A stretch of DNA of 20,378 nt, taken from a virus. The stretch is from IMG/VR virus record IMGVR_UViG_3300030107_002353, positions 1 through 20,378 of that record; one strand, 5' to 3'. The notes below the pieces were generated by a model. That model was not told the origin of the DNA. It was given only the letters and a program-made list of their open reading frames with translations, and made no database searches. Below are positions 4,834 through 19,973 of this stretch, in pieces. Within the stretch, counting starts at the first letter, position 1; each line of letters opens with the position of its first letter. The position numbers were made by a program, and so were the translations under genes.

Positions 4834-7800
4834 TTAAGTCTCTTGTTTACCGTAACCAACGGCTTGATAAACAAAGTTTCGATCTACATTGCTACCTGAG
4901 CTATTCAGGAAGTTGATAGTGAAACCTGTTCGAGTCAAAGAACTGATTGCATAATAGTCTCCCGTTGCCAAATTTGCACTTGTAACTCCTACATTCGGAG
5001 TTTGATAGAAAGCATTTGTAAACGTCACAGCCTTGGCAGATGTCCCTGATGCGATTGTTGCGCTTGCTTCTGTTCTTGGTGATATATCAACGGTGTACCC
5101 TGCCTCACTAACAACAGGTGTTTGATCAATATGATTTGAAGTTAGTTGTACCTTAAATTGAAAAATACGTCCTTTATATCTTCCAGACTCTAAAGGAATC
5201 CAAGCACCATATAAAACATTATCTTCATACATAATCTTGTCACTATCTTCTTTTAATAATTTGTCGCCTGTTTCTAATAAATAATCATCATCAGTAATAG
5301 CAGAATCAGCCGTTCTGAAATACATCATTGCACTAACATCATCAGCATTTAACCCATCAATATCTGACCATCTGTCAATCAATTCTGATCTACCGTCCCA
5401 CAAATCAGAAGGATAAACACCAACAGCTTTTAGTCTACGTTTTAAATCAACACTAAATTTACCGCCTAAATCAAGAATATTTTTAAAGAAATATTCTCCA
5501 CTTTCTAAACGATCTCCAGTGAAATCAAAGGTAGGGATTAAATCAACATCTGCAATGGAATCAAATAGTTCATCACCATCTAAAACTAAGCCAACCATTC
5601 CTGAAGTATCGCTATAAAAAATATCATTATGTTGTCCATCAAAAGGCGGTGTGTCTGTATCTTCTCGATCAGTTTGAACAACAAATTTAGCAACAGGATC
5701 AGGTAAATCTATTGTTGCTGATTTTGCATTATCACTTTTTAAATTACTTGTTTTGTCTTCAAATTTTATTAAATATTCACCCTCAAGTAAATTCAATAAA
5801 GCATAATTCGTTACGGCTGAAACTTCAGTTAATTTCGTACTATTAGCCCATGTACCTGTTCCATCTGTTTCTGTTGCGTGTCTAATGATAGCAGTTAAGT
5901 TTTGAGGGTTAATTGTTCCTTTATCTGGTATATCCCAACGTAAAATAACTTCATCACCTGAAATCGCTTCAACAGTTACATTCTCAGGATCAGGAGGGGC
6001 TTTTTGGACTACTTCTACTGTCGTTTCTTCTCCTAATCCTGTTGTCGTAACAGGATCAACAACCGCAGCAATTGGAACTTCTATCTCTTTACCAATCCAG
6101 TTTGATTTTTTTTCAATCGGTACAGGCCCAATTGATCTAACTTGAAAAGTTAAAGTTGACCCCTCATTTAAACCGTCAATCTCATAAATTTCTTCATTAA
6201 CAAGAAATTTTTTCCAGTTACCTTTTCCAACCTTGTATCTAATTTCAAAACTAATCGTATTTCCATTTAATCCTCTTGACCATTCAGCCGTAATCCTATT
6301 AACGGTATTATCATTCTTCTGAACAAGAGAAGCTAACAGAGTTAAATCAATTGGCTTTGCAGGTGCTTCATCAAATCTTGTGACATCTTGAAATTCTAAT
6401 GTCTCATTTCCATCCGCTACGCCATAAATACTGTCGTTATGTTGTGCGCCAACAATCGTGAAAGTATTATTCCCATTATTTGAAACTGATACACACCTGA
6501 ATTTCTGTTCTTTAACTGTACTTGACGTTAAAATCCAAACAGATTGATCTTGTGGAACAGCAGAAAAAGCAGCCGTAAGATTAATTTGTGTACCAATAGC
6601 TTCACCGCCAGAAGCTCTTAATGTTTTTGATTCAACTGATCCATCTGGAAGCGTACAAATTAATGTTTGGTCACTGCCAGCCGGTAAGGTAATCGACTGA
6701 TCAACGTTAATAGCAGTTGTTGTTGATCCACTTGCTACTCGACCAGATAAACGAATACCTGCTCTAACTTCATCTGCTACAGCAAAAACTTGACCCGGTA
6801 AAACAACAGATCCATCTAATCCAGCACTAAAAGTAACAGTTTCACCGTCTAACTCCTCTGCTGCCATTAACCATTTACCCATCCTTTGTGCTTGCCATTT
6901 AGACGTAGCACCAAAAGCTAAAATCTCTTTTACTTGATACCCATAACGATCAATTAACTCGTAATTTTCAACAACAACCCAATTAGATTTATATAAGTTT
7001 TGTGGATCTTGATAACGAACCCGAACAGAAGAACTACGAGTTTTTAAAGATGTCCCTGAATATTCAAAAGCCCCATTGATAACATTTGAATTATTATATA
7101 AATGAACAGGAGAAATATCTGAACCATTATAATTTCCATGATCTGCCGTTGTTTGGATCGTATTAGAAGCCCAATACATCATTCCTCTAAAGACAGAAGA
7201 TAAATCTTGTAAACAAGAATAAGCATCTGTGGAATTACCAATTATGGTATTAATTGCAAAACGTGGTTCTCTTCCATCAGGTGTAGAAATTAATTGATTT
7301 GCATATTTAATTAAAGGATATAAATCAACCCAATTAATATTTGAAGTGCTTACAAATTGACCTGCCCCATATCTTTCATTCGTCAACATATCTATATAAC
7401 AGCAAACAGGGCATGTAGTCCATTTAGGCCCAATCAAATTACCGCTAAAAGCACCTTCAAAAGTTAAGTAGCCATCGCTTTGAACTGTTGCATTATCAGG
7501 GATTAAGACCTTTCTTCCCTTTACTTTATAAGCTCTTGTTGGAACGGATGAAAAGACTTTTGTTGATATTTCTAAACCTGCTACAGCCGTGTAAGGATAG
7601 GTATTGTAAAAGTCAACTTGCTCAACTAAAGAAGTCCAAAAAATACGATTGCCTCGTCCTTGTGCTAAAGATAATTTTCTAGCTTTTGTTTTTGATAAAT
7701 CCTTAAATTTAGTATATTTAATCTCAAAATCATTTTCACCATTTGTAATTTTTTTTACTCTTATATTCCACGGGCCGACACCTGAAAGTTTGATTTGTGG

Positions 7801-8331
7801 CGTTTGAAATTGATAATTATTTGTCGCTATACCTGTTAATTCTTTCTTGTAGACCTCATTAAATCCTTTACCTTTCGATTGCAAGGAAATTCTTATAGTA
7901 ACAGTTGCATTAAATCGTTGACCTTTTGCTAATCCTTCAACGGCTGTAGAAAATAAAGCAGGAACAGTAAAAAGACAAGAAAATTTATCAGCATCTAAAT
8001 CCGTAATCGAACGAACAAGTTCACCTCTTCCATACCTTCTTCTAATTACCTCGTTATCAGTATTTAAGTCTTCATTATAGTTTTCTCCTACTTCCTGATT
8101 AATATCGACAATATTTGATGCCCCTGCTCTGTTTTGTGGCAGGTCACTTTGTGTTCTTCCTCCTAATCTAAAATCATAGTCAACCTCATCTGTTGAATAA
8201 TTATCTGTATCATCTACTTTTAAAGGTGTCTCTTCTAAATAAATACCCTTACGACCTTTAACAAGCCCTTCAATTGGGCCTTCTGAAATAAGATCAACTA
8301 ATTTAATAACAGAAGTAGAATTTAAAGGCAT
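4834..8331 (-). CDS. J: Lambda J-like central tail tip and host-specificity protein (1165 aa)
   Basis: The length (1165 residues, close to lambda J at 1132) and the opening LVDLISEGPIEGLVKGRKGI followed by YLEETPL are diagnostic of the J family. The first 650 residues or so should form the hub and baseplate-like domains of the tip. Two fibronectin type III-like regions follow, at about 660-755 (ITAEWS, FEIRYK, LTFQVRSIG) and about 780-870 (VILRWDIPD, LLEGEYLIKF). The last 80 residues (TFTNAFYQTPNVGVT, TGDYYAISSLTRTGFTINFL, FVYQAVGYG) resemble a small receptor-binding beta domain. It lies directly after the I-like gene, as in lambda. The protein sits at the distal tail end and contacts the host surface. 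Confidence 0.9.
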   Translation of the reverse strand: MPLNSTSVIKLVDLISEGPIEGLVKGRKGIYLEETPLKVDDTDNYSTDEVDYDFRLGGRTQSDLPQNRAGASNIVDINQEVGENYNEDLNTDNEVIRRRYGRGELVRSITDLDADKFSCLFTVPALFSTAVEGLAKGQRFNATVTIRISLQSKGKGFNEVYKKELTGIATNNYQFQTPQIKLSGVGPWNIRVKKITNGENDFEIKYTKFKDLSKTKARKLSLAQGRGNRIFWTSLVEQVDFYNTYPYTAVAGLEISTKVFSSVPTRAYKVKGRKVLIPDNATVQSDGYLTFEGAFSGNLIGPKWTTCPVCCYIDMLTNERYGAGQFVSTSNINWVDLYPLIKYANQLISTPDGREPRFAINTIIGNSTDAYSCLQDLSSVFRGMMYWASNTIQTTADHGNYNGSDISPVHLYNNSNVINGAFEYSGTSLKTRSSSVRVRYQDPQNLYKSNWVVVENYELIDRYGYQVKEILAFGATSKWQAQRMGKWLMAAEELDGETVTFSAGLDGSVVLPGQVFAVADEVRAGIRLSGRVASGSTTTAINVDQSITLPAGSDQTLICTLPDGSVESKTLRASGGEAIGTQINLTAAFSAVPQDQSVWILTSSTVKEQKFRCVSVSNNGNNTFTIVGAQHNDSIYGVADGNETLEFQDVTRFDEAPAKPIDLTLLASLVQKNDNTVNRITAEWSRGLNGNTISFEIRYKVGKGNWKKFLVNEEIYEIDGLNEGSTLTFQVRSIGPVPIEKKSNWIGKEIEVPIAAVVDPVTTTGLGEETTVEVVQKAPPDPENVTVEAISGDEVILRWDIPDKGTINPQNLTAIIRHATETDGTGTWANSTKLTEVSAVTNYALLNLLEGEYLIKFEDKTSNLKSDNAKSATIDLPDPVAKFVVQTDREDTDTPPFDGQHNDIFYSDTSGMVGLVLDGDELFDSIADVDLIPTFDFTGDRLESGEYFFKNILDLGGKFSVDLKRRLKAVGVYPSDLWDGRSELIDRWSDIDGLNADDVSAMMYFRTADSAITDDDYLLETGDKLLKEDSDKIMYEDNVLYGAWIPLESGRYKGRIFQFKVQLTSNHIDQTPVVSEAGYTVDISPRTEASATIASGTSAKAVTFTNAFYQTPNVGVTSANLATGDYYAISSLTRTGFTINFLNSSGSNVDRNFVYQAVGYGKQET

Positions 8332-8334
8332 TGT

Positions 8335-9588
8335 TTAACTCGCTGTAAAGGAATTTTTATAACCCATTTTTGATACCTTTAAAGTGCAATTAGCCTCTGA
8401 ACGAGCATCAAGAATTTCTAATGTGATTTGATAATCATCCTTATGCTCAATCTTTGTAAAAGAAAATTCATGTGCCCATTTATAAATAGGTCTTGTGTTT
8501 TTTAAAAGCAATCCTTGAATTGTTGCTTGAATACTTCCCATTAAAGGCTTACTGTCATCATTTGTGTTTTTAACGGTTACTCGATAAGTAATAAAGCCAT
8601 CAACCAAGGTTGTTCCAACACCACTTGCATAATCAAATAAACCCTTTGGCAGTTCAAAAAATACTCTAAATCTATTTGATGGATATGTTGCATGGTCAGG
8701 CATTTCACCAGTAACCGTTCCTAATACTGTTGTAGCTCCTTCTCTTGGATGTAATGTTTTATTAACTGAATAAAGTGTCCCTCCTTTTGTATTTTTAAAC
8801 TTTCTTGTTTTTAATCCTGATAATTTCCGCATAGTATTATTTACCTGTTCCCCACCTATCCTGATAGTGCTTGGCCCCGGATCTTTAATGTATTTCAACA
8901 ATGGATCTGACTCATCAGCAACTTGAATCTGAGCAGATAAAAGATGACTTCCAGCTAAAACTTCACCGTAAACAACTGGAATTGTTGCACCAACACCAAC
9001 TGTATTAGCAGCCCCTTGGTATGAATAACTTTGTCTACCATCAGAACCCCTTGTTACAGATTGAGGGCCATCGGTTGCTAATGAAGCACCATCACCAAAA
9101 CGTTGAGCAAGTGGTTCAGGTTGAGGCGACAGCATTTGAGAAATGCCACCCAAAACAAGACTGACACCAATAGCACCAACAACCTTTCCTATAGAAATAC
9201 CTGCAATAGTAGCTCCACCGAATCCTCCAGCGAATCCAGCAGCAGCACCCGCACCAAATCCACCTGTTGCTACAACTGCCGCAATTAAAACAACACCTAC
9301 AACTACTTTTGTGACAGGATTGTCACCACTACCTGCAATGACAGGAGTAATAACCAAATCATTCTTTCCTAAAGGTAAAAATAAATCTTCTATTCCTAGA
9401 TATTCACCTGCCTGAACAACTGTATAAGCAACGCCGTCTTCATGGGACGTAGCTAGATGAGTTGCAAAATTCTCATTGTTAATACATAAAAGTTTTATTG
9501 CATCCGCAGGCGAACGCAAATTATGATAAATATGCTCTGAACCAAACTGCTCGCCTAATTCATCCAGCAGCACCACCTTTTGCTGCAT
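8335..9588 (-). CDS. I: Lambda I-like tail tip assembly protein (417 aa)
   Basis: The N-terminal domain (VVLLDELGEQFG, SPADAIKLLCIN) and the glycine/alanine-rich hydrophobic middle (about 95-155) ending in LGGISQMLSPQP match the lambda tail assembly protein I family. Position between the K-like and J-like genes agrees. At 417 residues it is nearly twice the length of lambda I (223). The extra C-terminal half (about 200-417) begins GATIPVVYGEVLAGSHLLSA, a segment found in longer homologues. The start overlaps the NlpC/P60 gene by 29 bases. The hydrophobic middle could be taken for membrane segments, but in this family it is part of the tip protein. Confidence 0.85.
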   Translation of the reverse strand: MQQKVVLLDELGEQFGSEHIYHNLRSPADAIKLLCINNENFATHLATSHEDGVAYTVVQAGEYLGIEDLFLPLGKNDLVITPVIAGSGDNPVTKVVVGVVLIAAVVATGGFGAGAAAGFAGGFGGATIAGISIGKVVGAIGVSLVLGGISQMLSPQPEPLAQRFGDGASLATDGPQSVTRGSDGRQSYSYQGAANTVGVGATIPVVYGEVLAGSHLLSAQIQVADESDPLLKYIKDPGPSTIRIGGEQVNNTMRKLSGLKTRKFKNTKGGTLYSVNKTLHPREGATTVLGTVTGEMPDHATYPSNRFRVFFELPKGLFDYASGVGTTLVDGFITYRVTVKNTNDDSKPLMGSIQATIQGLLLKNTRPIYKWAHEFSFTKIEHKDDYQITLEILDARSEANCTLKVSKMGYKNSFTAS

Positions 9589-14110: not shown

Positions 14111-14180
14111 TTGATTGAGTCCTTTTTTTGAGTTGGTGGATAATTAATAAACCTGATTCGGTTGCTTGATCTGGAGACAT
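14025..14180 (-). CDS. Possible small gene coupled to the ERF stop (51 aa)
   Basis: An ATG at 14180 shares one base with the ERF stop (TAATG), the same arrangement as several accepted gene pairs here. It opens a 51-residue frame starting MSPDQATESGLLIIHQLKKR. The first 24 residues fill the otherwise unexplained 69-base gap between ERF and the SSB-like gene. The rest overlaps the SSB-like gene in another frame for 86 bases. There is no family match. It may be a small real gene, or only a reading frame that lets ribosomes reach the next start. Confidence 0.3.
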   Translation of the reverse strand: MSPDQATESGLLIIHQLKKRTQSNAKQFRLQSCSQESNQVDSFREQLRRVR

Positions 14181-14872
14181 TAGACGGCGGCTTTTTCTTT
14201 AACCATTTTGGCTAAATAATCGCCATGTGCTTTTGTCGTAATGTGATTTGGTGAGATTTCTTTAGCTGAAATTTTAAACTCCTTTTTAAAATCAGTTAAA
14301 ACCGTTTTTAATTGGTCAGAAGTTAAACCTCTTAAATCCTTTTCGATTTGAGATTTAAACGCTGGAGCTATAAAGTCAGGCGCACCCGTAGGAGGTGGAC
14401 TTGAAACTTGTTTTGGCTGAGTCGGAGTTCTAGAAATTCCTTTTCTTTGTTCGACTTTTTCTTTAGGTGCTGAACCTTCTGCGTCATCATCATCTCCTGC
14501 TAATCCATAGATTGCTAAGAGTCCATAACGTCTTGCATAAGTCGTAGCTGATCCTAAAGCTTGCATGATATTTCCTCTGTTGGGAACGAGATCAGGCAAG
14601 GGAAGTTTGCTGACTATTTCTTCTCCTGAAATATGCTTAAGAGTCGTAACCAAAATAGTTACAACTTTTCCTGATTCAGGTAAGACCATCGCATCAAATG
14701 TTTGCGTATGGCAAAGACCTAAATGTGTTGCTGGTTGAACTGCATTTAGTCCACCTGCAAGAGTTGTATAAAAACCATAATTGGCTTTTCCATCTTTTCC
14801 TGCTGCGTGGTGTTCCTGCTGGAACTGAACTAATGCTTCAGCTAAATTAGCTGGAGGCTTTGGCGAGGGCAT
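14180..14872 (-). CDS. erf: ERF-family single-strand annealing protein (230 aa)
   Basis: The ERF family pairs complementary single strands in phage recombination. The hallmark block is clear: ALGSATTYARRYGLLAIYGL at about 105-124, followed by the acidic run AGDDDDAEG. Upstream parts (GFYTTLAGGLNAV, THLGLCHTQTF, GKVVTILVTTLKHISGE) also follow the family pattern, and a charged C-terminal tail is normal. I chose the ATG at 14872 over an ATG six codons earlier (14890), because the shared leader CAAAAAACCACATG lies exactly there and family similarity begins after it. A dedicated promoter is at 14905-14933. It sits with the RusA-like and RecB-like genes in one module. Confidence 0.88.
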   Translation of the reverse strand: MPSPKPPANLAEALVQFQQEHHAAGKDGKANYGFYTTLAGGLNAVQPATHLGLCHTQTFDAMVLPESGKVVTILVTTLKHISGEEIVSKLPLPDLVPNRGNIMQALGSATTYARRYGLLAIYGLAGDDDDAEGSAPKEKVEQRKGISRTPTQPKQVSSPPPTGAPDFIAPAFKSQIEKDLRGLTSDQLKTVLTDFKKEFKISAKEISPNHITTKAHGDYLAKMVKEKAAV

Positions 14873-14883
14873 GTGGTTTTTTG
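14873..14883 (-). promoter_or_regulatory. CAAAAAACCAC leader directly before the ERF start
   Basis: Read leftward, the bases just before the ATG at 14872 are CAAAAAACCAC. The same leader precedes the starts at 18216, 19577 and 19910. No purine-rich ribosome site is present. It marks 14872 as the real start, since the alternative ATG at 14890 lies upstream of it. A role in translation initiation is inferred from position. Confidence 0.55.
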
Positions 14884-14904
14884 ATCCCATTTATGTACTC
14901 TTTA

Positions 14905-14933
14905 ATATTAATAAGAATAAATTAAAAAGTCAA
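14905..14933 (-). promoter_or_regulatory. Promoter P3 for the ERF gene
   Basis: On the minus strand, TTGACT (14933-14928) is followed by 17 bases and TAATAT (14910-14905). The spacer end and -10 region, ATTCTTATTAATATTAAAGA, match the other two promoters (19935-19973 and 18241-18279) almost base for base, including ATTAAAGAGTA shared with the 18241 copy. The -35 box lies inside the last codons of the RusA-like gene. About 32 bases separate the -10 box from the chosen start. Unlike the other two copies, the outer TAATCTTA/TAAGATTA arms are not kept. Confidence 0.7.
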
Positions 14934-15413
14934 TGAGTATGGCAATATATGAATGATTGCACCCGGATATTCGTTTCTTTCAACGTATTTTTTTACAGCA
15001 GTTAAAGACACTACAAAACTATCATCTTTTAGAACTATCCCTCCAGTTGTTACGGCGAGTCCATCAAGTGTGCTTCGGCATAGTTTATCAATATCTCCTA
15101 CTGCATGACTGGTCAAAAAATGAGGTGCGGAATCTTTTATTCTATCCTTGTTTTTTCCTGTTCCAAAATGTGATTTAGGACGAGGGAAAAGGAAATCAAT
15201 CTCAACATGACAAGGGCCATCAATCGGATCAAACTGATAAGACTCGAGAGAAGCGTGTCTAATATCTTGTCTCCAAGGTTGCACCTTTTTAGATGATTCA
15301 ATAAGAGATCCGTACCGAGTTAATCGTTTCGATCCCTGTGCGCCCGGAATCCCGATAACTCTAATAATAATCGGACTCAAAAACTCTCTCGTTTCGAGTT
15401 GAACTGCTCCCAT
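14922..15413 (-). CDS. RusA-like Holliday junction resolvase (163 aa)
   Basis: RusA enzymes cut Holliday junctions. The N-terminal IIRVIGIPGAQGSKR fits the family's first strand and loop. The acidic core is GDIDKLCRSTLDGL (Asp107, Asp109, Asp117) followed by VLKDDSFVVSL (Asp130, Asp131), the order of the metal-binding residues in E. coli RusA. The start is uncertain. The ATG at 15413 is given. A TTG at 15380, preceded by GAGAG and overlapping the nuclease stop, would give 152 residues and fits the family N-terminus equally well. The 5' end overlaps the nuclease gene by 37 bases. Its place between nuclease and annealing protein supports a role in processing recombination intermediates. Confidence 0.85.
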   Translation of the reverse strand: MGAVQLETREFLSPIIIRVIGIPGAQGSKRLTRYGSLIESSKKVQPWRQDIRHASLESYQFDPIDGPCHVEIDFLFPRPKSHFGTGKNKDRIKDSAPHFLTSHAVGDIDKLCRSTLDGLAVTTGGIVLKDDSFVVSLTAVKKYVERNEYPGAIIHILPYSLTF

Positions 15414-16078
15414 GAATCGTGCCAAGCTAAACGACAGGTTAATGGATCTTGATCCTCTCCAACAATGCACTTATTTGGTCTTGACCAAACAGTTTTACAA
15501 GCATCAACCACAATCTTATGGTGATTAGCTAAAGCTTCAACATAACTTCCAAGCTGTGCATCAGTGTTATAAATTTTTCTGTTTGATTTACTTTGAGTTT
15601 TAAGATCAATTAAAAGCAATTTACCTTCGTTATGGTCGTAACCTAAAACGTCAAATTGTCCTCCTACTGATTTATCTAAATCGGCAATCATATATTCAAC
15701 GGCCCACGTTTCAAAGTTTTCCCAAAATGGATCTGACAAAAGTGGATCTACCCAATCTTTATATTCTTTTGGATTGGGTTGTGCATCACCTAGTAGAAAT
15801 TGTTCAAGACAATAATGAACATGAACGCCCCGAGGTTCCCATATATGACGATACCGTTCAATATTTGCCATCTGTTCTGGCGTTTTATCGGAACCTGTTA
15901 CTCGAGTTGTCGAATAGGCAAGCCATTCTCCAGTTGGTTCCCAACAATACTGATGACGTGCTTCGTCACGATATATGGGAAGAGGCTGAAGCTTAAGTGA
16001 ACCCCAAGCTGGATTGCGTATAAGATTCGGATTGTTCCCTAACTGTTGGTAAGGCCCAGAGGTGTTCTCTTTTTCCAT
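15377..16078 (-). CDS. RecB/Cas4-type PD-(D/E)XK nuclease (233 aa)
   Basis: The motif order of the RecB-like nuclease family is complete: HVHYCLEQFL (His88, Glu92), GGQFDVLGY (Asp143), LLLIDLKTQS (Asp158, Lys160) and DAQLGSYVEALA (Gln175, Tyr179). Such phage enzymes are usually exonucleases that make single strands for an annealing protein, here ERF. I chose the ATG at 16078 because AAGGA lies close upstream. ATGs at 16123, 16099 and 16093 are possible and would lengthen the overlap with the winged-helix gene, already 86 bases. Its 3' end overlaps the RusA-like gene. Nuclease fold is sure; whether exo- or endonuclease is inference. Confidence 0.85.
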   Translation of the reverse strand: MEKENTSGPYQQLGNNPNLIRNPAWGSLKLQPLPIYRDEARHQYCWEPTGEWLAYSTTRVTGSDKTPEQMANIERYRHIWEPRGVHVHYCLEQFLLGDAQPNPKEYKDWVDPLLSDPFWENFETWAVEYMIADLDKSVGGQFDVLGYDHNEGKLLLIDLKTQSKSNRKIYNTDAQLGSYVEALANHHKIVVDACKTVWSRPNKCIVGEDQDPLTCRLAWHDSWEQFNSKRESF

Positions 16079-16319
16079 AGTTTCCTTTGACATAATCATT
16101 TGTTTTTTCGAGTTGTCCTTCATTAGATAAATTTGTCATTGCCCGTCTGATTGACGTAATTGGGCAATTGAGTCCTGATCGAGCAAGTACCATTGACGGG
16201 CTAAGAGGCTCGTCACAAGAATAAAAACAGTCAAGAATCTTTTCATTTTGAGTTTGAGCTTTTGCTTGAGACTCTGCAAGTTCTTCGGCTGTTTCATCAA
16301 TGGTGTTATAGAAGGTCAT
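15993..16319 (-). CDS. Winged-helix DNA-binding protein (108 aa)
   Basis: The start at 16319 has AAAGGA about seven bases upstream. A longer frame upstream belongs to the overlapping 48-residue gene's DNA. Residues 28-90 read as a winged helix: NEKILDCFYSCDEPLSPSMV, then ARSGLNCPITSIRRAMTNLS as helix-turn-helix with recognition helix TSIRRAMTNL, then NEGQLEK and GNYGKREHLWAL as the wing. The first 25 residues are acidic and helical, and the last 15 are polar. Similar folds occur in phage regulators and replication helpers. The specific target is unknown. It overlaps the nuclease gene by 86 bases. Confidence 0.7.
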   Translation of the reverse strand: MTFYNTIDETAEELAESQAKAQTQNEKILDCFYSCDEPLSPSMVLARSGLNCPITSIRRAMTNLSNEGQLEKTNDYVKGNYGKREHLWALPTVREQSESYTQSSLGFT

Positions 16320-16452
16320 TTTTAAATCCTTTGGTGGTTTTAGGTAATCGTTTTTTAGGAGCTTTAGGCTTAATCCTTTTTTTCGGCTTGTTGTAGTTGC
16401 GAAAGCTTTCAACGTCAAGGAGAAAGTGAGACTCGTTTTGATTCAAGATCAT
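16306..16452 (-). CDS. Small basic protein, coupled between two genes (48 aa)
   Basis: This 48-residue frame starts at 16452 in an ATGA overlap with the preceding gene's stop, and its end overlaps the winged-helix start by 14 bases. The protein starts MILNQNESHFLLDVESFRNY and turns very basic (NKPKKRIKPKAPKKRLPK), ending FKNDLL. I see no family. It fills the 130-base space between two genes that otherwise sit close together, and its codons read as protein more naturally than the longer overlapping frame. A nucleic-acid-binding role is suggested only by charge. Confidence 0.6.
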   Translation of the reverse strand: MILNQNESHFLLDVESFRNYNKPKKRIKPKAPKKRLPKTTKGFKNDLL

Positions 16453-16721
16453 GTTGCTAAATCCTTCGGGTCGATTATTTGCACCGATTCAGAAGGTGGA
16501 GTTTCTTCTCTTGCGAGATTCTTATGCCTTACACCTTGATACCCTCGAGGAAAAATAGCGAGGTTTGAATTGGCATCATCCATGCACCTTTGAAAACCCG
16601 GACTTGGTTTATCTAAATCTTGAAGAGTCCATAGAGGTTTGTCTGGATTCGATGGATTCGGGGAGGTAAGCCCTCTTTTAAGCAGTCTTATGATCGAAGC
16701 TTTGTCATATAAGGGTTCCAT
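16449..16721 (-). CDS. Unrecognised small protein (90 aa)
   Basis: No family recognised. The protein is proline-rich in two places (TSPNPSNPDKPLW, EETPPSES) with a central DLDKPSPGFQRCMDDANSNL segment. The start is firm: AGGGGG lies nine bases upstream, and the ATG follows the previous stop directly (TAAATG). The end overlaps the 48-residue gene (ATGA). It belongs to the transcript that leads into the nuclease and RusA-like genes, so a minor role in DNA metabolism or its control is possible but not shown by the sequence. Confidence 0.7.
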   Translation of the reverse strand: MEPLYDKASIIRLLKRGLTSPNPSNPDKPLWTLQDLDKPSPGFQRCMDDANSNLAIFPRGYQGVRHKNLAREETPPSESVQIIDPKDLAT

Positions 16722-17303
16722 TTATTCAAACCCCCTAGAGGCTGTAAACACTCTTTGAGCGGGATGTCCTGTTGTTGGTTCAGGATTCCAAGAAGGCGTT
16801 TTTGTTTTAGAAAAAGTTTCGTAATTCTTTTTGGTGATACTTTGCCATTCGTTAGCGATAGCGAGAGTCAATTGATCTTTTGTAGCGTCTTCACCGTATT
16901 CCTTCTTAATCCCTAAAAGACCTTTCTCACTCATAAGAAGATCAAAAGCTGCTTCTGTCTTTTTTCCTTTTTTGCTGTACCAAAAATCAGAGATCAAAGT
17001 CGATAAAGATTGAAGTTCAAAAGGAATTAAATCCTTACTGAATTTAAACCTCGTTTTTTTAAAATTTTCTTTTTCTTTATTTATACTATTAGATACTCTA
17101 TTTGTATTAGATAAAGTACCTTCACTTTTTTTTGTTTCTCTCTCTCTTTCGTTCGGTACTTTAAGGGTAACACTTGTGTCAAGGGTTGCAAGTCCTCTAG
17201 CAAGCATTTCATTGACAAAGGAAGTGGTGGAAGTCCATTCGGGTTTTCTGTCTCTACACTCTTGGAGTAATGACTTGTAGATTGGTGTGTTTTGTCTGGT
17301 CAT
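16722..17303 (-). CDS. Unrecognised protein, possible replication or regulatory protein (193 aa)
   Basis: The N-terminal 40 residues (IYKSLLQECRDRKPEWTSTT followed by SFVNEMLARGLATLD) could be a small DNA-binding domain. Residues 50-85 are a charged, low-complexity linker. The C-terminal part (SLSTLISDFWYSKKGKKTEA, LLGIKKEYG, QLTLAIANEWQSITKKNYET) looks like a compact helical domain of the sort at the ends of phage replication proteins of the O/DnaT kind, but I cannot assign it to a named family. It is the first gene of the recombination-side transcript, preceded by a 162-base regulatory gap, with no clear ribosome site. Replication role is inference. Confidence 0.65.
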   Translation of the reverse strand: MTRQNTPIYKSLLQECRDRKPEWTSTTSFVNEMLARGLATLDTSVTLKVPNERERETKKSEGTLSNTNRVSNSINKEKENFKKTRFKFSKDLIPFELQSLSTLISDFWYSKKGKKTEAAFDLLMSEKGLLGIKKEYGEDATKDQLTLAIANEWQSITKKNYETFSKTKTPSWNPEPTTGHPAQRVFTASRGFE

Positions 17304-17465
17304 TTAAAACACTATTAATGGTGGATAGATGGTTGTTTACTGTTTAATGTTGCCATATCTAGTGTTAAGGCGCAAGGTTTAACTGATATTTTTATTGATA
17401 TTAATGTTTCTCGTTTGCTACAGTGTGTATAATTAACTTGACCTGAAGCTCGGAGGCTGTTGCCG
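17304..17465. promoter_or_regulatory. Intergenic control region between divergent genes
   Basis: This 162-base AT-rich gap separates a leftward gene (start 17303) from a rightward one (start 17466). It has several short repeats: TGATATT twice, 12 bases apart (17384 and 17396); TTAATGTT at 17344 and 17401; and an inverted pair AACACTA (17308-17314) and TAGTGTT (17360-17366). A rightward TATAAT lies at 17428-17433. I found no convincing leftward promoter. Operator function is suggested by the repeats but could be chance in AT-rich DNA. Confidence 0.45.
17428..17433 (+). promoter_or_regulatory. Rightward -10 box TATAAT
   Basis: A perfect TATAAT lies 32 bases before the ATG of the rightward 64-residue gene, with GTGTG directly before it. 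No good -35 box is seen at 16-18 bases, so it may need an activator or the upstream repeats. GGAGG at 17452-17456, nine bases before the ATG, is the strongest ribosome site of this region. Confidence 0.5.
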
Positions 17466-17660
17466 ATGACCACTAGGATTCAACAAATCAAAGAAAGTCT
17501 TCAAACTTTCGGGGCTGATCCCTATCAAATCGCTGCTGAAGCAATAGAACGAGGTGATCGTTTAGCGGCTCACGTTAATCGGTTGCAAAAGGTTCTTGAC
17601 CAAGTGCCTGATGCAAAAGCTCACGAACAACAGTGCTTTGGCTTGTGTTCGTCTCGTTAG
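17466..17660 (+). CDS. Rightward small helical protein of unknown function (64 aa)
   Basis: The start is the ATG at 17466, nine bases after GGAGG. A TTG two codons earlier is only three bases from that site and is rejected. The protein reads MTTRIQQIKESLQTFGADPY, then QIAAEAIERGDRLAAHVNRL and QKVLDQVPDA, two or three amphipathic helices with no family I know. The last 86 bases run antisense to the end of the RHH gene. With its own -10 box and ribosome site on the opposite strand to nearly everything else, it could be a regulator, or its transcript could act against the RHH message. Confidence 0.65.
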   Translation: MTTRIQQIKESLQTFGADPYQIAAEAIERGDRLAAHVNRLQKVLDQVPDAKAHEQQCFGLCSSR

Positions 17661-17751
17661 CTATTTGAACAATTTGACTTTTAACTTTTGGGGTGACACT
17701 GACCTGAAGTATCTCACTCCATAGATCGCTGCCTTTAGATCTGTTCGGCAT
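17575..17751 (-). CDS. Ribbon-helix-helix (Arc/CopG-type) regulator (58 aa)
   Basis: The start at 17751 has AAAGGA seven bases upstream; a longer frame upstream would run through the terminator. Residues 12-50 fit an RHH domain: a short strand LQVSVTPKVKSQI, helix one KVKSQIVQIANETN, and helix two TSQSTVVRELLHQAL. RHH proteins bind DNA as dimers through the paired strands and often repress phage promoters at short repeated operators. The gene lies 34 bases past a strong terminator with no clear promoter of its own, so expression may depend on read-through. The 3' part is overlapped by a rightward gene. Confidence 0.8.
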   Translation of the reverse strand: MPNRSKGSDLWSEILQVSVTPKVKSQIVQIANETNTSQSTVVRELLHQALGQEPFATD

Positions 17752-17784
17752 TTCAAAATCCTTTAATAATCTCAATAATATAAG

Positions 17785-17821
17785 AAAAAACCCGAGAGGC
17801 TTCCACCTTTCGGGTCTTTTT
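17785..17821 (-). terminator. Rho-independent terminator, possibly working both ways
   Basis: A 10-base-pair stem, ACCCGAGAGG against CCTTTCGGGT with one G-T pair, and a 6-base loop lie at 17790-17815. Read leftward it ends in TTTTTT, and read rightward in CTTTTTG, so either strand could terminate here. It lies directly after the 67-residue gene (stop at 17823) and closes the short transcript from the promoter at 18241-18279. Confidence 0.88.
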
Positions 17822-17822
17822 G

Positions 17823-18026
17823 TTAGCGGTGCTTGTAGGTTTTTTTGAACCATTTTCTTTTTTCTTGATGATAATCAGACTCACAATCGGATAAAAATCT
17901 TTTTGCTTGTTTGATTCTCGCAAGATCACCAGTTGCGATTGCTAACTGGTAAGCGTGGTCGGCTAATTGAATATCAGCCGCCATGTCTGCTAGTAGCTGA
18001 TTTTGTTTGTAAGGTTTAAGTGGCAT
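17823..18026 (-). CDS. Unrecognised small helical protein (67 aa)
   Basis: No family recognised. The protein is mainly helical (LLADMAADIQLADHAYQLAI, LARIKQAKRFLSDCESDYHQ) with a basic end, KRKWFKKTYKHR. GAGG at the end of the preceding gene lies about nine bases before the ATG, and the two genes are only four bases apart, so they form a two-gene transcript with the 61-residue gene. A strong terminator follows the stop within two bases. Confidence 0.68.
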   Translation of the reverse strand: MPLKPYKQNQLLADMAADIQLADHAYQLAIATGDLARIKQAKRFLSDCESDYHQEKRKWFKKTYKHR

Positions 18027-18030
18027 TAAA

Positions 18031-18216
18031 TTAATCCTCTAAAGCAATTTCGACTTTTGATAAAAGGTCGTTGATTTCTTGATGCTGATCTACGAAGTTT
18101 TTAAACTCTTGTGACTCAGGATCTAAGCCTTGAGTTTGACTTTCGATTGCGATCAATGAATCCGAAAGAACTGCTTCTAAAGTTTCAAGTTCGGCCTGAT
18201 TAAACTCTTGAGTCAT
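18031..18216 (-). CDS. Unrecognised small acidic helical protein (61 aa)
   Basis: No family recognised. It is a strongly acidic, probably all-helical protein (FNQAELETLEAVLSDSLIAI, FVDQHQEINDLLSKVEIALE). Small acidic phage proteins sometimes act as inhibitors or DNA mimics, but nothing here proves that. It is the first gene behind promoter P2 with a leader of about 20 bases that lacks a ribosome site and instead has CAAAAACCACAA directly before the ATG. The 67-residue gene follows four bases after its stop. Confidence 0.68.
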   Translation of the reverse strand: MTQEFNQAELETLEAVLSDSLIAIESQTQGLDPESQEFKNFVDQHQEINDLLSKVEIALED

Positions 18217-18228
18217 TTGTGGTTTTTG
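18217..18228 (-). promoter_or_regulatory. CAAAAACCACAA leader before the 61-residue gene
   Basis: Read leftward this is CAAAAACCACAA immediately followed by the ATG at 18216. No purine-rich ribosome site is present. The same leader stands before the starts at 19910, 19577 and 14872. From the end of the -10 box to the ATG is 26 bases, exactly as in the 19910 copy. Confidence 0.6.
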
Positions 18229-18240
18229 TTGACTACTCTT

Positions 18241-18279
18241 TAATCTTAATAAGAATATCTAATATTGTCAATAAGATTA
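18241..18279 (-). promoter_or_regulatory. Promoter/operator block P2
   Basis: Read leftward: TAATCTTA, TTGACA (18271-18266), a 17-base spacer ending TATTCTTAT, and TAAGATTA whose first six bases (18248-18243) are the -10 box. The outer octamers TAATCTTA and TAAGATTA are perfect inverted repeats, 39 bases from end to end. TCTTATT occurs twice, 22 bases apart. The block is the same length and layout as the copy at 19935-19973. The stop codon of the 64-residue gene lies inside the first arm. Repressor binding is inferred from the symmetry. Confidence 0.8.
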
Positions 18280-18471
18280 ATTGCGTTTAACACAATTGTA
18301 ATAATATAAATATTCCTCTTTCGTAATCTCGGTCAGTAATTGATAGTCCTTTTCTGTCAACTTTAGCCCTTCTAGTGATTTACTTTGTTCTTCTTTCTCC
18401 CAACAAGAAATGAGGAGCTTTAACTCCTCAATTCTTTTCTTTGCGTATTCGATCTTTTCACTTGTCTTCAT
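18277..18471 (-). CDS. Unrecognised small helical protein (64 aa)
   Basis: No family recognised. The N-terminal half is a charged helix (SEKIEYAKKRIEELKLLISC), followed by LKLTEKDYQLLTEITKEEYL and a tyrosine-rich end YYYNCVKRN. The ATG lies 14 bases inside the end of the 207-residue gene, so it is the last gene of that chain. Its stop codon lies inside the inverted-repeat arm of promoter P2, and no hairpin terminator separates it from P2, so P1-side transcription may run into the next unit. Confidence 0.65.
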   Translation of the reverse strand: MKTSEKIEYAKKRIEELKLLISCWEKEEQSKSLEGLKLTEKDYQLLTEITKEEYLYYYNCVKRN

Positions 18472-19081
18472 TTTCAGCGTCTTCTATGTCTTGCAAATAG
18501 TCTAATTCCTCTTTTGTTCTTGGGTCTAATTCCTTATCTTCTCGATAACTAAACGCATTTTCTGGGGTATCTTCCTCTAAGAAAACGCCTTGGCCCGGAT
18601 CTTCTCGCCTTAAAAGCAGATGAACAGGAACATTATTGACATCTAAATAACTCCCTATCTTTAGAAATACCTCGGCGGGTAAATCCATTGAATCCTTCTC
18701 GTAATCGGGGTCATGTTTTTTCGATTCTGTGTACCAGAAGACAGAGCGAGTCCCTGAAGAATCAGTCCAAACTAAACGAGCTTTTGGCTCAAGATAATCC
18801 TGACTAAATTTTCTAACCCATTTATCAGCAGGTCTTTCAAAGTAAGTTCCTGCCTTATGCTCTGATCCAACGATTAGAACTTTCGGAAAAGGTTTTGTCC
18901 TGTGAACTCTCCATGACTGTTTAAGTTCCCACCACAAGCCTTCTTTTTCTCTTTTTTCAATTTGCTTTCTGGCTCTGGAGAGAACTTCTTCCATTGTTTC
19001 TCCATACATAATGCAATCTCCATAATGCACTTCCCACCTCGTTTCGGTTGGGACTGGATAAGCTGGATTTGTTGGGTTCAT
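18458..19081 (-). CDS. Unrecognised protein (207 aa)
   Basis: The largest gene of the early region; I recognise no family. The N-terminal part (TRWEVHYGDCIMYGETMEEV, then LSRARKQIEKREKEGLWWEL) is followed by a beta-rich middle with many aromatic residues (FPKVLIVGSEHKAGTYFERP, RLVWTDSSGTRSVFWY) and an acidic C-terminus (DPRTKEELDYLQDIEDAENE). The start overlaps the 88-residue stop (ATGA) and the end overlaps the 64-residue gene by 14 bases, so it is in the middle of a coupled four-gene chain. It is soluble, with no signal peptide or membrane segment. Confidence 0.7.
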   Translation of the reverse strand: MNPTNPAYPVPTETRWEVHYGDCIMYGETMEEVLSRARKQIEKREKEGLWWELKQSWRVHRTKPFPKVLIVGSEHKAGTYFERPADKWVRKFSQDYLEPKARLVWTDSSGTRSVFWYTESKKHDPDYEKDSMDLPAEVFLKIGSYLDVNNVPVHLLLRREDPGQGVFLEEDTPENAFSYREDKELDPRTKEELDYLQDIEDAENEDK

Positions 19082-19344
19082 GGTGCTTTTTTCTCTAGTA
19101 GTTTTTCGGCTTTCTTTTGGTTTATAAATCTTGTGTAATAACGATCAAATTCATCTGCGTCATTAATAAGCCTTTCGGCTTCGGAAATTAAAAACTTTTC
19201 AACTTCAATTAAAAGATTGTTTTTTGATTTTTCAGCCCCTTTCGTTAGGAGCTTTAGTTTATCTTCGTGACCGTCTGGACAAGTACCTGCGAGGACAAGG
19301 CTGATAATTGTTTCGACAGCCAATTTGTTTGCTGAGATATTCAT
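19078..19344 (-). CDS. Unrecognised small helical protein (88 aa)
   Basis: No family recognised. The sequence is mostly helical: NKLAVETIISLVLAGTCPDG, then NLLIEVEKFLISEAERLIND and a lysine-rich end. The first helix is fairly hydrophobic, but it is short and followed by a charged stretch, so I do not call a membrane segment. The ATG overlaps the preceding stop (ATGA), with GGAG nine bases upstream, and the end overlaps the next start (ATGA). Confidence 0.68.
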   Translation of the reverse strand: MNISANKLAVETIISLVLAGTCPDGHEDKLKLLTKGAEKSKNNLLIEVEKFLISEAERLINDADEFDRYYTRFINQKKAEKLLEKKAP

Positions 19345-19577
19345 GTGTAAGATTCTCCTTCAACGTGTTTTGTGCAGGAATATTTGAGGCCGTGTCTGAT
19401 CGCTTCAGAAACTAAAGCGTCTTTCTCTTCCTCTGAATAGGCGTAATCATCCCAATCTTTTTCAGTTACAACGTGCCAATAGTATGTTGGATTGTCTTCG
19501 TTGTATTTCTCCAACCTAGCTTGTAAATCAAGTTGCTCTAGGTGGCGATTGAGAGCGGTTTCGTGATAATCGGACAT
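19341..19577 (-). CDS. Unrecognised small acidic protein (78 aa)
   Basis: No family recognised. It is acidic and rich in Tyr, Trp and His (YNEDNPTYYWHVVTEKDWDD, then YAYSEEEKDALVSEAIRHGL). It is the first gene of a four-gene chain running to 18277. The ATG has no ribosome site but is preceded directly by CAAAAACCACA, the leader shared with three other genes. Upstream lies a palindrome flanked by direct repeats (19607-19654) and then the terminator of the previous gene. I see no promoter of the P1/P2 kind for it. Confidence 0.7.
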   Translation of the reverse strand: MSDYHETALNRHLEQLDLQARLEKYNEDNPTYYWHVVTEKDWDDYAYSEEEKDALVSEAIRHGLKYSCTKHVEGESYT

Positions 19578-19588
19578 TGTGGTTTTTG
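19578..19588 (-). promoter_or_regulatory. CAAAAACCACA leader before the 78-residue gene
   Basis: Read leftward this is CAAAAACCACA directly followed by the ATG at 19577. It is the only one of the four copies not preceded by the P1/P2/P3 promoter, which suggests that the leader has a function of its own at translation rather than being a by-product of promoter duplication. Confidence 0.55.
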
Positions 19589-19606
19589 CGAAGGAATAAA
19601 GATGCT

Positions 19607-19654
19607 GGACTAACTGCCTTCTTACATAGTTGAAACTATTGAGGACTGACTGCC
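19607..19654. repeat. 14-base palindrome flanked by 12-base direct repeats
   Basis: GGACTAACTGCC (19607-19618) and GGACTGACTGCC (19643-19654) are direct repeats with one mismatch, 36 bases apart. Between them ATAGTTGAAACTAT (19626-19639) is a perfect palindrome around GA. The block lies between the terminator of the 77-residue gene and the start of the four-gene chain, the place for an operator or promoter control site. No standard promoter boxes are obvious in it. Confidence 0.55.
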
Positions 19655-19657
19655 AGC

Positions 19658-19697
19658 AAAAAAAAATGAGCCTTGTCTAATAGTGACAAGGACTCAT
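19658..19697 (-). terminator. Strong terminator overlapping the end of the 77-residue gene
   Basis: Read leftward, ATGAG-T-CCTTGTC pairs with GACAAGGCTCAT, a 12-base-pair stem with one bulged T and a 7-base loop, followed by an unbroken run of T. The 5' arm encodes the last residues (MSPCHY) of the 77-residue gene, and its TAG stop falls at the loop. So the same bases serve as coding sequence and terminator. It ends the single-gene transcript from promoter P1. Confidence 0.9.
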
Positions 19698-19910
19698 TGT
19701 GCTGTTGAAGTCAAGCCAAGAATCATCTTGCTCTTCTTCGATTCTGATCTTTGCTTTTGTTTCGATCTCGGTGATCTCGTTGCAAAGAACCTTTTTAACT
19801 TCTGGGGTTGCTGTTCCTTGTTCGTTTAAGTAACCGATTGTTCTATAAAGAGCGGTAATCATTTCTGATTCGTACTCGGTTAAATAAGCGCTTTTTGGTT
19901 GGCTGTTCAT
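19677..19910 (-). CDS. Unrecognised small protein, single-gene unit (77 aa)
   Basis: No family recognised. The protein reads as two helices (YLTEYESEMITALYRTIGYL, VLCNEITEIETKAKIRIEEE) with an acidic end, DDSWLDFNS. It has its own promoter block P1 (19935-19973), a 20-base leader with CAAAAAACCACAA directly before the ATG, and its own terminator that begins inside the last codons. This makes it a self-contained early unit, probably strongly expressed. A regulatory or host-takeover role is possible but not shown. Confidence 0.7.
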   Translation of the reverse strand: MNSQPKSAYLTEYESEMITALYRTIGYLNEQGTATPEVKKVLCNEITEIETKAKIRIEEEQDDSWLDFNSTMSPCHY

Positions 19911-19924
19911 TTGTGGTTTTTTGG
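19911..19924 (-). promoter_or_regulatory. CCAAAAAACCACAA leader before the 77-residue gene
   Basis: Read leftward this is CCAAAAAACCACAA directly followed by the ATG at 19910. The leader from -10 box to ATG is 26 bases, the same as in the 18216 copy, and TCAAC precedes the A-run in both. There is no Shine-Dalgarno-like sequence. Confidence 0.6.
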
Positions 19925-19934
19925 TTGAACATCC

Positions 19935-19973
19935 TAATCTTAATAAGAATAATCCTTAATGTCAATAAGATTA
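19935..19973 (-). promoter_or_regulatory. Promoter/operator block P1
   Basis: Read leftward: TAATCTTA, TTGACA (19965-19960), a 17-base spacer ending TATTCTTAT, and TAAGATTA containing the -10 box (19942-19937). The outer octamers are perfect inverted repeats. It matches P2 (18241-18279) in length and in all blocks except the middle of the spacer. That pattern, conserved edges and free spacer, is what one expects if both polymerase and a symmetric repressor read the site. The RHH protein at 17575-17751 is a candidate repressor. Confidence 0.8.

Follow-up and report, generated by a model that had tools for sequence, protein, structure and literature searches.

A recurring promoter cassette with a built-in palindrome in marine cyanosiphovirus-like phages, and a candidate ribbon-helix-helix repressor for it

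In the virus record IMGVR_UViG_3300030107_002353, of which the 20,378-base stretch analysed here at full length (positions 1 to 20,378) is referred to as the window, one promoter and leader cassette recurs on the minus strand before small genes and the recombination gene ERF. Along this strand the small genes are followed by an exonuclease, a RusA-like resolvase and ERF, with the tail genes after these. A sequence-only reading of the window had proposed three leftward promoters. We could confirm all three (P1, P2 and P3) as TTGAC(A/T)-N17-TAA(G/T)AT promoters on the minus strand, each with a 17-bp spacer and with hexamers matching the sigma70 consensus at 9-10 of 12 positions, and the pattern TTGAC-N11-ATTCTTATTAA is far above shuffle expectation (three occurrences in the window versus 0.007 per dinucleotide shuffle). 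The promoters and the genes behind them (open reading frames, ORFs; lengths in amino acids, aa) are as follows.

19957..19973, minus strand: upstream operator-like copy of P1, TAATCTTATTGACATTA, with the -35 TTGACA; also the TTGA-type consensus
19965-19960 / 19942-19937, minus strand: -35 and -10 of P1, 17-bp spacer
19935..19951, minus strand: main palindrome of P1, TATTCTTATTAAGATTA, with the -10 TAAGAT
19677..19910, minus strand: 77-aa ORF behind P1, ATG at 19910
18263..18279, minus strand: upstream operator-like copy of P2, TAATCTTATTGACAATA, with the -35 TTGACA
18271-18266 / 18248-18243, minus strand: -35 and -10 of P2, 17-bp spacer
18241..18257, minus strand: main palindrome of P2, TATTCTTATTAAGATTA, with the -10 TAAGAT
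18031..18216, minus strand: 61-aa ORF behind P2, ATG at 18216
14933-14928 / 14910-14905, minus strand: -35 and -10 of P3, 17-bp spacer
14903..14919, minus strand: palindrome of P3, TATTCTTATTAATATTA, with the -10 TAATAT
14180..14872, minus strand: ERF single-strand annealing protein, first gene behind P3

The three promoters share a palindromic core of 17 bp, TAATCTTA-T-TAAGATTA (the box in what follows), and the -10 lies in its right half. These sequences had been described as a spacer end, ATTCTTAT, and a -10 region, TAAGATTA; the letters hold, and what does not hold is their treatment as separate parts, since together they form one palindrome. P1 and P2 have a partial second copy (TAATCTTATTGACAwTA) over the -35, 22 bp upstream, and, as had been noticed, 26 bases between -10 box and ATG in both. 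P3 has no second copy, and its -35 TTGACT (14933-14928) lies inside the final codons of the RusA-like gene. The 77-aa ORF is followed by a terminator-like hairpin (19691-19671).

Between box and start codon lies an A/C-rich leader element, AAAAACCACA, which adjoins an ATG four times in the window (versus 0.017 per dinucleotide shuffle).

19912..19921, minus strand: leader element AAAAACCACA of P1, before the 77-aa gene (ATG at 19910)
18218..18227, minus strand: leader element AAAAACCACA of P2, before the 61-aa gene (ATG at 18216)
14872..14881, minus strand: leader element AAAAACCACA of P3, overlapping the ERF start codon (14872-14870)
19578..19587, minus strand: leader element AAAAACCACA without a promoter box, before a 78-aa gene (ATG at 19577)

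At P3 the overlap reads CCAC|ATG at 14872, with a longer ERF reading frame beginning upstream at 14890. The leader is separable from the promoter, given the copy at 19587-19578, which reaches its ATG without a box; homologues of this 78-aa gene in related phages do have one. The claim that the leader ends directly at the ATG is borne out near the window's own start codons and fails as a general rule: in relatives the distance from ACCAC to the ATG is 0-15 nucleotides (nt), and a GGAG Shine-Dalgarno (SD) sequence sometimes intervenes. We found [A/G]CC[A/G]C in the leaders of 110 of the 126 box promoters lying no more than 60 nt from an ORF (exactly ACCAC in 104). Among 594 genes classed as non-box, 31 have ACCAC, and several of these are box genes that escaped the filter. 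A general translation signal of these phages was rejected as an explanation, with ACCAC at 0-6 of about 57 genes in box-less relatives. Two further observations concern the leaders. A hairpin of varying sequence and similar position lies between box and ACCAC in several contigs (G001 10844, G002 6236, G004 11389, G007 16328 and G018 37739). The leader of a scaffold-like gene, cttGTGGTTTTT-ATG, is the reverse complement of AAAAACCAC (G004 3376, G005 36712 and G011 308), which could possibly reflect antisense pairing with early leaders, or chance. Rfam gave no match to an RNA element in the window or in the related contig G005.

More than 30 further cassette-bearing contigs were found by ERF-led, capsid-led, RHH-led (the ribbon-helix-helix protein introduced below) and pattern-led searches. 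The sequence-only reading had expected further copies and conservation in relatives, and both were found, at orthologous as well as non-homologous genes. Its view that the genes behind the promoters are unrelated also stands: because cassettes in relatives precede non-homologous genes too, their spread is not gene duplication. The related marine cyanosiphovirus-like contigs have up to about eight copies per phage, on both strands and usually followed by the [A/G]CC[A/G]C leader. Near-exact boxes are concentrated in the small-gene and recombination region; several contigs also have a lone copy next to the scaffold gene. Reversed-pattern controls matched 0 times in 10 contigs, once in 39 and 0 times in 0.95 Mb. 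A strict scan of viral_contigs for TTGAC-N11-ATTCTTATTAANATTA gave no match, the pattern being too strict; looser and protein-led searches succeeded. In 257 Gb of bacterial genomes the combined -35 and box pattern had two matches (Flavobacteriaceae and Melainabacteria assemblies), which is chance level, and host or prophage carriers were rejected as neither match is a qualifying promoter cassette. We found no near-identical DNA among cultured phages, and no box in the cultured relatives KBS-S-2A, S-H1, P-HS2 and MED4-117. The related contig G005 (43.6 kb) carries a terminal repeat of 60 bases or more and is probably complete. Its major capsid protein is 68-80% identical to the capsids of siphophages infecting Synechococcus WH7803 or Prochlorococcus MED4, and on this capsid identity the hosts of the box-bearing phages are probably marine picocyanobacteria.

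The palindrome appears to be more than a promoter part. Across 67 unique TTGA-type cassettes each position of its left half is conserved at 84-100%, and across 29 unique TGTACA-type cassettes (a group with another -35, described below) at 72-100%, in sets for which the -35 letters served as selection and the palindrome was selected with at most two mismatches. The consensus of the window type is TAATCTTATTGACATTA-N5-TAATCTTATTAAGATTA, and the palindrome is kept where the -35 has changed. The promoter spacer, where the left half lies, is not read by sigma70. Conservation of this half inside the spacer argues for an operator beyond the promoter.

A candidate for the protein that binds it is encoded nearby.

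17767..17783, minus strand: single variant box TTATATTATTGAGATTA, lacking a recognisable -35 and standing 15 nt ahead of the RHH start
17575..17751, minus strand: 58-aa ribbon-helix-helix (RHH) protein, candidate repressor

By predicted fold and family profile, this 58-aa protein is of the RHH (MetJ/Arc/CopG) type. The profile RHH_1 matches 13 of 17 homologues (best E-value 2.3e-7). The AlphaFold model has helices at 21-33 and 38-49, after a stretch that would form the strand in RHH dimers, and its best PDB matches are mainly RHH proteins (VapB, CopG, AmrZ, AvtR and Arc). When 2.9 million viral contigs were searched by alignment, the protein turned up in 22, all of which have boxes. Wherever the region upstream of an RHH gene was checked, a box precedes the ATG by 15-46 nt, and in box-less relatives a search for the protein found none. 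The box at 17783-17767 is probably an autoregulatory site of the RHH gene. It is immediately preceded by a terminator-like hairpin (17816-17785), because of which read-through from P2 would be limited, and the RHH gene may depend on its own weak promoter.

Other readers of the cassette fared less well. The product of a 193-aa gene (17303-16722) is less likely as the box binder, having a homologue in the box-less phage KBS-S-2A. A phage sigma factor was rejected because searches of box phages gave none; in the seven largest box-bearing contigs searched there was neither an integrase nor a sigma-factor match. Nor was the integrase or lysogeny module of a temperate-phage immunity system seen in these phages: there was no match to the integrase family PF00589 in 10 contigs including G005, in a search that left serine integrases and partition systems outside its scope. 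Box-less relatives do encode a sigma70-like factor (G022:29011-29157, L131-L132; KBS-S-2A 7779-8708, L120, annotated RpoD-like), and these capsid-related phages may use a different early regulatory strategy.

Taken together, we consider it probable that these are sigma70-type promoters with a built-in operator, a dispersed early set that the phage RHH protein would repress along with its own gene. This supports the proposal of the sequence-only reading that a reused control cassette puts small early genes and the recombination module together under the switch of one regulator; what that reading overlooked is the operator-like palindrome on the promoter, the nearby RHH candidate with its own box, the separability of the leader and an alternative -35 group. 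On entry, host RNA polymerase with the main sigma factor would fire all copies together, giving short, mostly SD-free mRNAs with the A/C-rich ACCAC leader that encode single small proteins and the ERF recombination protein. The RHH protein would then accumulate from a gene with one weaker box, bind the palindromes cooperatively (in the window group a partial second copy lies two helical turns upstream, over the -35), and shut off the whole set and its own gene by blocking polymerase, that is, by promoter occlusion. From the DNA we infer the early timing, the binding by RHH, repression rather than activation, and the role of ACCAC.

Several points weigh against this model. The RHH protein of the window scores just under the Pfam cut-off (18.3 versus 20.5 bits), and the Foldseek E-values of its model are 0.7 or higher, which are weak because the protein has only 58 aa. 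In most phages the left half of the box at the RHH gene is degenerate. Co-occurrence by itself cannot single out RHH, as the box also accompanies other genes of that module. The box-bearing contigs are all metagenomic, with no cultured member. Finally, the TGTACA promoters are without a consensus -35 and fit simultaneous firing by host sigma70 less well.

The latter promoters define a second group of phages. In window-type phages the -35 of nearly all orthologous genes reads TTGAC or TTGA (exceptions are TTTACA at the ERF of L010 and single differing sites in L147, L157 and G013). Eight contigs (G002-G005, G007, G011, G012 and G041) have mostly TGTACA, TATACG or CATACG there, with identical spacing and with palindrome and leader unchanged; neither -35 form is present at some of their promoters, e.g. 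those beside the ParB-like gene and one ahead of the MGQ gene. On the ERF tree the -35 label needs four changes, at least three of them forced by well-supported branches; the -35 type thus goes with the phage rather than with its ERF gene. In TGTACA-type phages 21 of 28 TGTACA copies stand at box promoters. Ten GGYRTACRRA sites, all then followed by a box, occur in the eight TGTACA-type contigs, versus one, without a box, in 13 window-type contigs. Upstream of these promoters GCATCAA (20 versus 1.1 expected) and CAACGAA (13 versus 0.5) are enriched, figures that describe rather than test, as the words were picked from the same promoters and the phages are related. The concerted swap of TAATCTTATTGACA for GGYRTACRRA plus GCATCAA/CAACGAA might, as a tentative proposal, mark a second trans-acting factor that co-evolves with the promoters and is exchanged separately from the RHH operator; it would be an activator or an altered polymerase specificity. 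All 8 TGTACA-type contigs contain a C5 DNA methyltransferase cluster and none of the 14 window-type contigs does (about 8 of the 14 extend as far as the terminase gene); the enzymes of the TGTACA type are 71-99% identical to that of G005. A link with the -35 switch is possible, as a correlation within related phages. In all TGTACA-type phages (e.g. L024-L031, L033, L034 and L129) a stand-alone C5 DNA methyltransferase lies beside a ParB-like gene; in window-type phages this place is taken by a fusion of ParB with an amino-methyltransferase or by another gene, or is empty.

The poor -35 and the upstream GCATCAA/CAACGAA repeats of TGTACA-type promoters resemble an activator layout, and RHH proteins can activate as well as repress. 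The palindrome might then serve an activator or a host regulator that switches these promoters on in a particular host state, with some other job for RHH. We regard this as unlikely, since the palindrome covers the -10, where a bound protein normally blocks polymerase, the full TTGACA of the window group needs no activator, and the RHH gene is itself marked by a box. Even less probable are strong constitutive early promoters spread by duplication or recombination and without a dedicated regulator: TTGACA-N17-TAAGAT is near the sigma70 consensus and cassettes travel with different small genes on both strands, but a bare promoter would not predict the conserved left half, the second copy at 22 bp or a palindrome kept after replacement of the -35. 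That the repeats are mainly boundaries promoting module recombination, as proposed for the linkers of lambdoid phages, with the promoter secondary, is very improbable, for despite the three or more -35 label changes on the ERF tree and an ERF cassette whose downstream half is nearly identical and upstream half different between the window and G002/G003, the fixed 17-bp geometry and the position just before start codons point to expression control, with shuffling possibly a by-product.

The proposed repression of a dispersed early set by an RHH protein has parallels elsewhere. P22 Arc and plasmid CopG are RHH repressors whose operators overlap promoter hexamers, at one or two promoters each; fold and operator placement are alike, but they do not act on a dispersed regulon. 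The closest parallels are SSV1 F55, the SIRV2 early sequence and the cluster K repeats. F55, a small RHH regulator of the Sulfolobus virus SSV1, binds repeated sites in its own promoter and in several early ones (PMC5569661); as at P1, P2 and the RHH gene, each early promoter has two sites and the regulator gene has one. F55 acts on archaeal promoters through tandem ATAGATAG repeats in lysogeny maintenance, whereas the promoters here are of the sigma70 type, the site is a 17-bp palindrome and no integrase was found. In SIRV2, one conserved early sequence precedes many unrelated small early genes that stand singly, and the regulator gene Aca8 (PMC11065993). It is alike in that a shared control sequence includes the regulator's own gene, with shut-off by the regulator proposed; it differs in its archaeal TATA/BRE promoter and in Aca8 being a predicted winged helix-turn-helix protein rather than RHH, and it precedes known anti-defence genes, whereas the genes here are without assigned function except ERF. 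The SAS/ESAS repeats of cluster K phages lie at non-structural gene starts, about half with upstream inverted repeats (PMC3203893, PMC12699233), and there too some starts bear the leader element alone. SAS is SD-like, however (13-bp GGGATAGGAGCCC, AGGAG, 3-7 bp from starts), and ESAS consists of paired 17-bp repeats with a variable spacer, whereas the leader here is ACCAC with no AGGAG core or SD and the compact palindrome has a fixed place over the -10. The stoperators of cluster A phages (L5) are likewise many dispersed copies of one repressor site, mostly off promoters, in one orientation and stopping elongation (PMC6550527), whereas the sites here are palindromic, at promoters and on both strands. 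A limited literature check for a cyanophage early-gene repressor or operator gave no match. The kind of system is already known (F55, SIRV2, cluster K ESAS); its bacterial-virus version is new.

If the model holds, marine picocyanobacterial phages have a single-protein early regulon that is readable from DNA alone. The box would then predict small genes co-expressed at the start of infection, likely candidates for host takeover or anti-defence; this logic of prediction has worked in archaeal viruses (PMC11065993). The scattered promoter set that changed its -35 while the operator stayed fixed is a natural experiment in which the co-evolution of a regulon and its trans-acting factor becomes testable.

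Apart from the cassette, GAATTC occurs 0 times in two pools of box-bearing contigs (197 and 176 kb), against about 58 and 56 expected under a Markov model, a strong signal of restriction-site avoidance.

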